Shown piece after piece: positions 111 through 3,061 of a stretch of DNA of 64,000 nucleotides. The notes below the pieces were generated by a model that did no database searches, had not been told where the DNA came from, and saw only the letters and a program-made list of their open reading frames with translations. This DNA comes from Halomonas sp. HL-48 (GTDB lineage: Bacteria; Pseudomonadota; Gammaproteobacteria; Pseudomonadales; Halomonadaceae). The stretch covers positions 1-64,000 of the forward strand of contig NZ_LJZS01000021.1 in NCBI RefSeq assembly GCF_001314875.1. Reading direction: 5' to 3'. The number at the start of each line of letters is the position of its first letter. The stretch's first letter is position 1. Both the position numbers and the translations under genes were made by a program.

Positions 111-755
111 ATGCGTAAAAGGGACGAGGACAGCGTGGCAAGAACCCAGGACGAAATTCGGCAAACCAACGTGAAAAAGATTCTTCAGGCGGCGGAACAG
201 CTGTTTGCTGAAAAGGGCTATGCCGGCGCCTCCATGGGCGATATCGCCCAGCTGGCCGACATTCCCAAATCCAACGTGCACTATTATTTTGCGACCAAAA
301 AAGCCCTTTATCAGGAGGTTCTGCTGGAGCTTTTGGAGGTATGGAAGCAGGACGCGCTGTGCTTTGAGCTCTATGACGATCCCCGCGTGGTGCTCTCCAG
401 CTACATTCGCGCCAAGATGAACCACTCGCGTAACCGCGCCCATGGTTCCAAGGTATGGGCTGCCGAGGTGATGCAGGGTGCACCGATTCTGAAAGAGTGC
501 CTGCGCGACAACCTTTACGAATGGGCCAAGCTCAAGGAGGCCAAGATTCGTGAATGGATCGAGACGGGCCAGATCAATCCCGTCGAGCCTTCCTATCTGC
601 TCTACATGATCTGGGCGTCGACCCAGCACTACGCCGACTTCGACTACCAGATCTACCTGCTCAACGACGACCAACCGCTTGACGACCTTCAGTTCGAAAA
701 AGCCGTGCAGTCAGTTACCTCGGTCATCCTTCGGGGGATTGGGCTGACGGCGTGA
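111..755 (+). CDS. RutR-like TetR family transcriptional regulator
   Basis: A 214-residue TetR repressor. The N-terminal helix-turn-helix (about residues 20-65, ending SNVHYYFATKKALY) is followed by a C-terminal ligand domain of the YcdC/RutR type, recognised by MIWASTQHYADF, which E. coli RutR also carries. RutR-type proteins sense uracil or thymine and control pyrimidine use and related pathways, which fits the nucleobase genes elsewhere in this window. The ORF track extends to 39, but those codons are group II intron RNA structure and should not be coding. ATG 111 is 12 bases past the intron. GTG 135 (reading ARTQDEIRQ) has a GAGG upstream and is a real alternative. The gene's own promoter and ribosome binding site may have been displaced by the intron. 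Its last 35 codons are repeated at 1531-1627. Confidence 0.88.
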   Translation: MRKRDEDSVARTQDEIRQTNVKKILQAAEQLFAEKGYAGASMGDIAQLADIPKSNVHYYFATKKALYQEVLLELLEVWKQDALCFELYDDPRVVLSSYIRAKMNHSRNRAHGSKVWAAEVMQGAPILKECLRDNLYEWAKLKEAKIREWIETGQINPVEPSYLLYMIWASTQHYADFDYQIYLLNDDQPLDDLQFEKAVQSVTSVILRGIGLTA

Positions 756-760
756 ACGAA
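649..760 (+). repeat. Direct repeat copy 1: 3' end of the RutR-like gene
   Basis: The last part of the TetR coding sequence plus its stop codon and five more bases (ending TGAACGAA) recurs at 1531-1627. The final 67 bases differ at only one position. Further upstream the copies differ mainly at third codon positions, and this copy has 15 extra bases (five codons, within DDQPLDD). Similarity stops immediately after CGAA. The two copies flank the AbiEi gene. Confidence 0.9.
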
Positions 761-780
761 AAGTGGCTTGAAGGCATTTA

Positions 781-822
781 AGTGTACATCTATGCTATGT
801 ATATATAGTCTAGGTGTTCACT
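781..822 (+). promoter_or_regulatory. Inverted-repeat operator candidate before the AbiEi gene
   Basis: AGTGTACA (781-788) and TGTTCACT (815-822) are inverted with one mismatch. They bracket an AT-rich core containing TATATA, a likely -10 region, and end just before the ATG at 824. AbiEi antitoxins of known systems repress their own promoter through inverted repeats, so an autoregulatory site is plausible. Binding is inferred. Confidence 0.4.
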
Positions 823-823
823 T

Positions 824-1366
824 ATGAATCATATGGTCGCCCGCCAACGCTTGGATGCATGGGATCGCCAGGGGCGCACTATTTTCACGTTGCGAGATCT
901 CGCCAAGCTGTTCCATGAAGATAACTCGAAAACGCTACAGGAAGGGGTGAACCGCCTCCGTCGTCATGGAGTGCTGGAAAGTGTTGCGCGGGGTATCTAT
1001 CACTATACCCTGTCTCGAACTCCAGACGCTTATCGACTGGAGCGTATCGCCCGGGCCATGCGGCGCGGAGAATACAGTTACGTCTCTTTAGAGTCGGCTT
1101 TATCTGAATATGGCGCTATCTCACAGATTCCGGTGGATCGACTGACTGTTATGACCACCGGCCGAAAGGGCACTTATCGCACACCTTATGGCACCATCGA
1201 GTTCACCCATACACGCCGCCCAGTCACCGAGCTGATGGGGCGCATGAAAGATATTGGTCGGCCCCTCAAAATCGCGACGCCTGAAGCCGCTTGGGCTGAT
1301 CTGAAACGTGTCGGGCGCAATACCCACCTAGTGGATGTCGAGGTGTTGGAAAAATTGTCAGACTGA
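824..1366 (+). CDS. AbiEi family antitoxin / DUF6088-like protein
   Basis: A 180-residue protein resembling AbiEi-type type IV antitoxins. The N-terminal winged helix region (about 1-65, FTLRDLAKLFHEDNSKTLQEGVNRLRRHGVL) is followed by the RGIYHY step and a C-terminal domain beginning YSYVSLESALSEYG, the usual arrangement in this family. Known AbiEi proteins repress their operon and neutralise the nucleotidyltransferase toxin AbiEii encoded just downstream. Here no AbiEii-sized gene follows, only a 52-codon ORF, and then the duplicated TetR tail. The gene is more AT-rich than its neighbours, which with the flanking repeat suggests acquisition by transfer. ATG 833 is an alternative start. Whether it still has a partner elsewhere cannot be seen. 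Confidence 0.75.
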   Translation: MNHMVARQRLDAWDRQGRTIFTLRDLAKLFHEDNSKTLQEGVNRLRRHGVLESVARGIYHYTLSRTPDAYRLERIARAMRRGEYSYVSLESALSEYGAISQIPVDRLTVMTTGRKGTYRTPYGTIEFTHTRRPVTELMGRMKDIGRPLKIATPEAAWADLKRVGRNTHLVDVEVLEKLSD

Positions 1367-1367
1367 A

Positions 1368-1526
1368 ATGACGCGATTTCTACCCACTGACACGCTGGCG
1401 CGAACGCTGGATAATCCGCGATTCGCCGATTTTCTGTCGCGAGAACTGACAACAATGCTTGGTTCGGTTGTCGCAACGCTAGACGGGCCTGACCCACATA
1501 CACCGCCGGATGAGTTTAAGCTTTGA
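1368..1526 (+). CDS. Small ORF after AbiEi, unknown function
   Basis: A 52-codon frame starting one base after the AbiEi stop codon (MTRFLPTDTLARTLDNPRFADFLSREL...), in the position where AbiEii toxin would be expected. The sequence shows no nucleotidyltransferase signature (no GS-x-D motif) and is far too short for AbiEii, which is usually near 300 residues. The stop lies four bases before the duplicated TetR tail. It could be a genuine small partner, the head of a toxin gene cut by the rearrangement, or chance. No function is assigned. Confidence 0.45.
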   Translation: MTRFLPTDTLARTLDNPRFADFLSRELTTMLGSVVATLDGPDPHTPPDEFKL

Positions 1527-1530
1527 AGAC

Positions 1531-1627
1531 CAATTTACTTGCTCAACGACAACCTGCAGTTTGAAAAAGCCGTGCAGTCAGTCACCTCGGTCATCCTTCG
1601 GGGGATTGGGCTGACGGCGTGAACGAA
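1531..1627 (+). repeat. Direct repeat copy 2: displaced RutR-like 3' end
   Basis: This copy would encode IYLLNDNLQFEKAVQSVTSV... through the stop codon, so it keeps the reading frame of a TetR C-terminus but has no gene body in front of it. Compared with copy 1 it lacks five codons in frame and carries mostly synonymous changes upstream of a nearly identical 67-base end. That pattern looks like the original or foreign tail left behind when DNA carrying its own version of the gene end recombined here. Confidence 0.9.
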
Positions 1628-1654: not shown

Positions 1655-2875
1655 TTACCCCAGCGGCCCGCCGGTGACCGTGGTTTTCAAGCCTGCGATG
1701 ATGGCCTGGCCATCTTCGCGCTGGAGTTCGTCGTACCAGGCGCGGGTATCGTCGGCATCGTGGCCGTGAATCATCGCCGCACGTTTGCGGGCGCGCTGGA
1801 CGATTTCGCCCACCCGGTCGACGCGTGCCCTGTCGTACTGCGCCAGGGCGCTTTTGATGGCCGCTGACGTATCGGTATTTTCTTCCAGCGCACGCTCGAG
1901 CGCCTGTGAGAGCACCCAGGCATCTTCCATCGCCTGGCAGCCGCCCTGGCCAAGATCGGGCGCCATGCCGTGGGCGGCATCGCCCAATAATGCGACCCGT
2001 GGGGCGGTGAGCGAATCCAGCGGCGGAATATCGTAGATTTCCACGCGGGCCATGCGCGCTGGGTCAAAGCGCTCGATCAGCGCCTGTACGGGGTCGGCCC
2101 AGCCGGCAAAATGTGCGCGTAATTCATCGCGATACAGATCGGGGTCGTTGGGCGTTCCCGCAGGGAGCGGCACGTCAAAGAAACAGTAGAATTCCTGTGC
2201 GCCTTCCTCGTTGCCGCCACTGCCCATGGGCATGAACGAGACGCGCTTGGCGTCGCCTACGTATTGGTCCCAATGCGTCAGGGGGGCCAGCGCTGCGTCG
2301 GCGGGGACGCGGACGTTCCAGTTCACATAGCCGACGTATTGGCGATCCACGGGGTGCCCTACCAGCTTGCTGCGAAGCCTGGAGTGCGTGCCCTCGGCGA
2401 CCACCAGCAAGTCGGCATGCAGGCTTTCACCGTCGTCAAAATGCGCCGCCACGCCGTCCTGGGTGACCGTGTAATCGTCACAGCGACGGCCAAACTGGAT
2501 GTGGTCGGTGCCGACGGCCTCCAGCAGCGTCTGCTGAAGCGCGGCGCGGGCAATCGGGCAGACGCGCTGGCCGACATCGCTAAACAGCGGTGCCAGGCTG
2601 AAGTCGGTCAAGGTCTTGCCGGAGTGGGTCAGGTAGCGCATCTGGGTCATCTCGCCGCTCAAGCCCTCGATGGTTTCACCCAGGCCTAACTGGTGCATGA
2701 CCTTGACGCCATTGGGCCATAGCGAAATCGCCGCGCCCACCGGGCGCATGGTCGCCACGCGTTCGGCAACGGTGACCCGATGTCCCTGTTGTTGAAAGGC
2801 GAGCGCGGTGCTTAGCCCGCCAATGCCCGCACCGATAACGAGAATATTGAGAGATGTGGTAAGCGGGCGGGGCAT
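1655..2875 (-). CDS. hpxO: FAD-dependent urate hydroxylase
   Basis: A 406-residue flavoprotein monooxygenase of the p-hydroxybenzoate hydroxylase fold. The dinucleotide-binding motif GAGIGG is at residues 15-20 and the second FAD motif (GDAAHGMAPDLGQG) near 297. The sequence GYVNWNVRV and the overall length match HpxO, which converts urate to 5-hydroxyisourate with NADH and oxygen in purine breakdown; other aromatic hydroxylases of the family remain possible. The start at 2875 has AAGGAG upstream. It stands alone: no hydroxyisourate hydrolase or OHCU decarboxylase gene is nearby, so the rest of the uricolytic pathway must be elsewhere. The RutR-like regulator upstream is converging on it. Confidence 0.82.
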   Translation of the reverse strand: MPRPLTTSLNILVIGAGIGGLSTALAFQQQGHRVTVAERVATMRPVGAAISLWPNGVKVMHQLGLGETIEGLSGEMTQMRYLTHSGKTLTDFSLAPLFSDVGQRVCPIARAALQQTLLEAVGTDHIQFGRRCDDYTVTQDGVAAHFDDGESLHADLLVVAEGTHSRLRSKLVGHPVDRQYVGYVNWNVRVPADAALAPLTHWDQYVGDAKRVSFMPMGSGGNEEGAQEFYCFFDVPLPAGTPNDPDLYRDELRAHFAGWADPVQALIERFDPARMARVEIYDIPPLDSLTAPRVALLGDAAHGMAPDLGQGGCQAMEDAWVLSQALERALEENTDTSAAIKSALAQYDRARVDRVGEIVQRARKRAAMIHGHDADDTRAWYDELQREDGQAIIAGLKTTVTGGPLG

Positions 2876-2955
2876 GGCAAACTCCTTGAACAGTGAAAGA
2901 GCACAATGAATGTTAATTGGGTAAGCCGGTCAAGAATCCCATCGCGAAGGTTAAC

Positions 2956-2963
2956 TGTATACA
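2956..2963 (-). promoter_or_regulatory. TGTATACA palindrome upstream of hpxO
   Basis: A perfect 8-base palindrome TGTATACA lies about 80 bases upstream of the hpxO start, with a half-like TGTATA about 15 bases further on. Palindromes of this form are common binding sites of GntR and TetR regulators of purine or pyrimidine genes. The short length makes chance occurrence possible. Confidence 0.3.
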
Positions 2964-3061
2964 AAATTGAGGTTTAATGTATAGGTAAAGGTCGTTTGGG
3001 CTAGGCATCCACGGTGTGCTGGATAACCGGAATGAGAAGCAAAAAAATGCCTGTTGCCCCC

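Follow-up and report, generated by a model that had tools for sequence, protein, structure and literature searches.

The 3' end of rutR, a gene for a RutR/YcdC-like TetR regulator, is probably a hotspot at which Vreelandella acquires genes without an integrase, and the repeated copies of that gene end found there (hereafter, tails) are its footprints. We read the tails as marks of homologous, partly illegitimate, recombination because rutR is mosaic in several relatives and because the allele of a tail is linked to the flank behind it. The case arose from a 64,000-nt stretch of Halomonas sp. HL-48 (positions 1 to 64,000 of contig NZ_LJZS01000021.1, hereafter the window), in which an earlier note, made from the sequence alone, had described a RutR-like gene end on both sides of an AbiEi gene.

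Results

A duplicated gene end around a broken AbiE unit

The rutR gene of the window (135–755, forward strand) is complete and carries the domains TetR_N and TetR_C_3 (YcdC-like; PF00440 and PF08362); its GTG start (VARTQDEIRQ) is taken from relatives. The end of the gene, through the stop codon and the five bases ACGAA that follow it (681–760, forward strand; copy 1), recurs at 1548–1627 (copy 2) with 95% identity over 80 nt, and a weaker part, 78% identical, lies immediately upstream (651–682 against 1533–1564). Both copies continue past the same stop codon and ACGAA and diverge only beyond; copy 2 has no gene body. Chance is excluded as the origin of the repeat, since it is the sole direct repeat of 50 nt or more in the 64-kb window. 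The duplication that the earlier note had seen is therefore confirmed as real. The same note had contrasted a near-identical end with a divergent head bearing a five-codon indel. The differences themselves are there (5 of 25 aligned columns and a 15-nt deletion in the head, 3 of 72 columns in the remainder), but the contrast is modest (Fisher p = 0.025, with a boundary chosen after the fact).

Between the copies lies an AbiEi antitoxin gene (824–1366, forward strand), identified by PADLOC model PDLC02232 with an E value of 3.6e-73; its match to the Pfam family AbiEi_4 falls under the cut-off of that family. The AbiEii gene that follows is a 3' remnant (1365–1526, forward strand) standing directly against copy 2. 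Judged against the intact AbiEii of V. neptunia (L046), which matches PF08843, some 760 bp have been deleted and 17% of the toxin gene is left; the same deletion is present in G074. Because AbiEii is deleted the unit is an antitoxin relic, and its AbiEi, the toxin being broken, is an orphan antitoxin. A role for the unit in defence is unlikely; putative protection by AbiEi against an incoming AbiEii is possible.

An inverted repeat (779–824; 20-nt arms, 16 pairs) overlaps the start of AbiEi and, from its position, is likely to be the AbiEi operator. Every unit at rutR has such a repeat, its arms about 20 nt long, over the start of AbiEi, and in L046, L072 and L074 the position is the same. Its arms are near-perfect in most relatives with intact gene pairs and are degraded in the window (16 of 20 pairs) and in unit 1 of G093. 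The window unit is like the AbiE type IV toxin–antitoxin system in that its AbiEi has an inverted repeat at the start and relatives at the same site carry a full AbiEii, but it differs in that its own AbiEii is down to about 53 codons.

Beyond copy 2 lies the native downstream neighbour, an FAD monooxygenase gene (1655–2875, reverse strand; PF01494). At the other side, just upstream of rutR and at the very start of the contig, positions 26–98 hold the 3'-terminal part of a group II intron (RF00029), which is probably the reason for the assembly break there.

Tails at rutR across the genus

The comparison covered 82 genomes of the Vreelandella/Halomonas group, one per species, and the empty sites used below are consequently those of other species. 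A near full-length rutR is present in 53 of the 82, mostly after mmsA. What lies 3' of it is highly variable: at least ten kinds of neighbour occur, including NUDIX, Lrp-SpmAB, FAD monooxygenase, LysE, agmatinase, a pyrimidine-degradation operon, a TRAP/hydantoinase cluster and AbiE. In G013, G068 and G097 the monooxygenase gene follows rutR directly, which is the empty arrangement for the window.

Searches by BLAST and with a profile built from the final 170 nt of rutR showed that at least 11 of the 82 genomes, the window's included, have tails that reach the stop codon, either downstream of the gene or as orphans. They flank unrelated cargo, namely AbiE, an 11-kb TRAP/hydantoinase cluster and a NUDIX-Lrp-SpmAB block; the same gene end beside other cargo, which the earlier note had proposed to look for in relatives, thus exists. 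The 11-kb cluster is followed by a tail of 362 nt in G005 and of 112 nt in V. sedimenti (G028). These are second tails with no AbiEi between them and rutR, an arrangement that the note had set against its own reading, but in both genomes other cargo takes the place of AbiEi. In G074 the TRAP cluster, AbiE and the tail stand in that order. Two or more tails are present at three loci: G093 has an intact AbiE pair with a tail at either end, Halovibrio variabilis (G099) also has two tails, and Halomonas sp. CUBES01 (G066) carries, besides AbiE and its tail, a third one behind SpmAB that is degraded (p = 0.002). Degraded tails occur in G033 and V. neptunia (p ≤ 0.001) and orphan tails in G024 and G025; that of G021 is weakly supported (p = 0.013) and was left out of the 11 genomes. 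Apart from a single IS30-type transposase, in G093, the cargo consists of metabolic genes, regulatory genes and AbiE. At the rutR loci of other Halomonadaceae and of Pseudomonas the same scar was not found, the few matches being internal or distant.

The state of rutR itself also varies. It is gone from G024, where only the last 85 nt or so are left (L071, about 2946–3030) between mmsA and the TRAP/hydantoinase cluster. The orphan tail of G025 (H. salicampi; L034, 5737–5869) follows a predicted aminotransferase gene and precedes NUDIX, and the complete rutR of that genome is on a separate contig. In G002 the gene is split by what looks like an IS5-like transposase gene (L035, 2039–3895), and rutR accordingly seems dispensable in that strain. 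Frameshifts break rutR and many cargo genes in G074 (L073) and may be assembly error, not decay.

Partial second copies could also arise if rutR had been duplicated in tandem, with the cargo in between, and the second copy had then eroded from its 5' end. The longest second copy, that of G005, is 362 nt long, and the varied lengths of the tails could be stages of such erosion. Yet no complete second rutR stands at the locus in any of the 82 genomes, a result that also goes against a full second TetR gene having merely been deleted, as the earlier note had considered. Furthermore, in G005, G028 and G025 copy 2 is closer to the rutR of other lineages than to copy 1 of the same genome, and in several species the AbiEii stop and the tail are only a few nucleotides apart. 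We hold duplication and erosion to be extremely unlikely.

No recombinase near the locus

All well-preserved tails stop at the rutR stop codon, and several unrelated cargos lie at the one site with the gene end restored. This is what could be expected of an integrase-driven island, or of the relic of a cis-mobilisable element, for which the rutR 3' end would be attB, the tails attL and attR, and the integrase lost or acting from another place. The window contig, over its entire length, gave no match to the tyrosine or serine recombinase families (PF00589, PF00239), which extends the observation in the earlier note that no integrase is present. Nor was any recombinase of these families found near rutR in the 14 most relevant genomes: the nearest tyrosine recombinase is between about 80 kb (a Xer-like match in G025) and over 500 kb away, and serine recombinases are likewise distant or absent. 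An integrase would also be expected to act at a fixed point, but the tails range from under 60 to 362 nt with differing left ends, and the breakpoints within rutR, described below, fall at different places. Third-position diversity in the tail is ordinary; the tail is thus not marked out as a special site, and the idea that it is specially conserved was rejected. An att-type element is consequently unlikely. The likeness to integrative elements drawn in the earlier note goes unsupported, as does the larger, integrase-bearing ancestor that it envisaged at rutR, of which the 14 related genomes gave no sign.

Crossovers within rutR and linkage of tail to flank

The clearest mosaic is that of V. 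sedimenti. Its mmsA–rutR region is mostly 95–100% identical to V. titanicae until about one third into rutR, after which the gene is 97–100% identical to G100 up to the stop. The switch is located at 1490–1496 of L032, with informative sites dividing 122:8 before it and 4:43 after it (permutation p = 0.0002). Copy 2 and its flank match Lrp-type empty sites such as that of G017. A mosaic copy 1 together with a G017-like copy 2 and flank suggests that resident tail and flank were displaced by incoming DNA, which appears from these identities to have comprised cargo together with the last two thirds of rutR.

Other breakpoints lie elsewhere. Copy 2 of G005 changes from G017-like to G100-like inside the tail and remains G100-like on into the NUDIX flank (p = 0.0006), copy 1 of CUBES01 switches shortly before the stop (p = 0.003), and copy 1 of G005 gave no significant breakpoint (p = 0.086); the reference genomes were chosen as nearest relatives, and these p values, like that for V. 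sedimenti, therefore describe the best contrast. Crossovers are thus found at differing points within rutR or its tail.

A second line of evidence comes from pairwise comparison of 45 loci. Where two loci share a downstream neighbour, the last 77 nt of their rutR genes are more similar, and the effect persists after correction for distance over the first 310 nt (difference −0.044, p = 0.0002). In the middle of the gene it is weaker (−0.007, p = 0.03), and it fades away from the gene end. The ends of rutR travel with the DNA behind them; tail alleles track the downstream flank, not the gene body.

Origin of the two tails in the window

Copy 1 is resident-like up to the stop. From about position 1551, that is, over its last 72 nt or so, copy 2 has only two mismatches to the end of rutR in G093, the nearest relative, and this part (1551–1627, forward strand, through the stop at 1622 and ACGAA) is on that account the resident gene end, still on its monooxygenase flank; for the flank behind it, the closest match is the empty site of G097. 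Positions 1531–1550 (forward strand), the head of copy 2, include the start of the 15-nt deletion. Head, deletion and the junction with the AbiEii stop are common to the window and CUBES01, and the junction is also present in V. neptunia (G031), from which it follows that the head belongs to the AbiE unit. Copy 2 looks, on these alignments, to be composite, with a unit-derived head of about 20 nt joined to a resident tail. The supposition in the earlier note that one copy had come with foreign DNA is correct for this head and not for the 72 nt after it; aligning the tails with related rutR genes, as the note had advised, makes copy 1 resident and copy 2 native except for the head. Its central proposal, an insertion beside rutR that leaves the gene end intact, is borne out, the AbiE junction being shared with two other species.

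Two resident-like tails, with ACGAA common to both beyond the stop, are also what would be left if the AbiE unit had inserted after rutR by a process that copied the resident end, both copies then being duplicated target. Insertion with a long target duplication is reportedly what Nobusato and colleagues proposed in 2000 (cited in PMC3031569); the likeness lies in direct repeats of the target that enclose a small module, and the differences are that copy 2 is composite and that the repeats are specific to rutR, not to the module. The head of copy 2, belonging as it does to the unit and present in other species, means that the repeats do not derive wholly from the resident target, and tails accompany other cargo at rutR too. 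The distribution of AbiEi bears on the same question. Within the genus, AbiEi genes at least 92% identical to that of the window occur only at rutR, in eight genomes. Elsewhere in the genus there are nine AbiEi loci at 80–85% identity and four more distant ones, and beside none of these 13 is a gene end duplicated; one of them, L201, has an unrelated 121-nt repeat more than 0.8 kb from the AbiEi unit. AbiE-specific insertion with target duplication was rejected on these grounds, and we consider target duplication as a whole improbable.

As to the AbiEi loci outside rutR, seven (L190 and L192–L197) lie elsewhere in their genomes and have genes 80–85% identical to the rutR clade; most of them lack an intact AbiEii, and several share similar upstream flanks. 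These are possibly solo antitoxins on mobile elements.

Discussion

If recombination at the end of rutR is the source of the tails, the donor would be chromosomal DNA of a related species in which the 3' portion of rutR is joined to different downstream genes. On one side, donor DNA would recombine homologously inside rutR, presumably by way of RecA; on the other, recombination would take place in a tail already on the cargo, or joining would be illegitimate. The newcomer would bring an intact gene end, and the resident end would remain as a truncated copy on the old flank. Each tail could then act as a short stretch of homology through which a further exchange takes place or the module is cleanly lost. 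The DNA may have entered by uptake: a ComEC-family gene in the host genome is compatible with this and proves nothing.

For the window, the account would be that an AbiE unit already bearing the head of a rutR tail was inserted between the resident rutR and the FAD-monooxygenase flank. With copy 2 as the displaced resident end, the corresponding empty site would read rutR-stop-ACGAAGCCG beside the monooxygenase gene. The left end of the unit has no directly mappable crossover; joining there may have been through an illegitimate end at ACGAA or may have been followed by gene conversion. That ACGAA is common to both copies beyond the stop is left unexplained by simple homologous exchange, and counts against this account.

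An alternative is that the rutR end is a dedicated cassette site, the modules ending in a rutR tail much as integron cassettes end in their own site, with a host system (RecA or a trans-acting recombinase) excising circles and reinserting them at rutR. Were this so, the end of a regulator gene would serve as a reusable docking sequence; we think it very unlikely.

Recombination at rutR has parallels. Oliveira et al. 2017 (PMC5635113) describe a class of recombination-driven hotspots that lack mobile elements, and the rutR locus is like these in its high gene turnover beside a core gene, the lack of an integrase, and homologous recombination in the flanking core gene, of which those hotspots show an excess. 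It differs in keeping the end of the resident gene as a scar after each module. Because the displaced end is left behind each time, past junctions can be read at rutR. Kirchberger et al. 2017 (PMC5361080) proposed that the arrays of T6SS immunity genes in V. cholerae arise by homology-facilitated illegitimate recombination: as at rutR, a homology-anchored incoming module displaces the earlier 3' end to a downstream position, and an array grows as such events recur. There, however, the cargo is the gene's own variable 3' part, whereas at rutR the conserved end of a regulator is restored and the cargo is unrelated. Of the two joints in that process, the homologous one is mapped in relatives of the window and the other would be illegitimate. 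A limited literature search, covering few subscription papers, found no paper on this locus.

The case carries a caution: finding a defence gene between two copies of a gene end is not in itself proof of an integrative element. Other genomes can be screened for the signature of the scar, in which part of the 3' end of a core gene is repeated on the far side of unrelated cargo and no integrase is present. For Vreelandella, rutR would be a place where genes are probably acquired without an integrase and leave readable scars, with breakpoints that mapping can place to within tens of bases.
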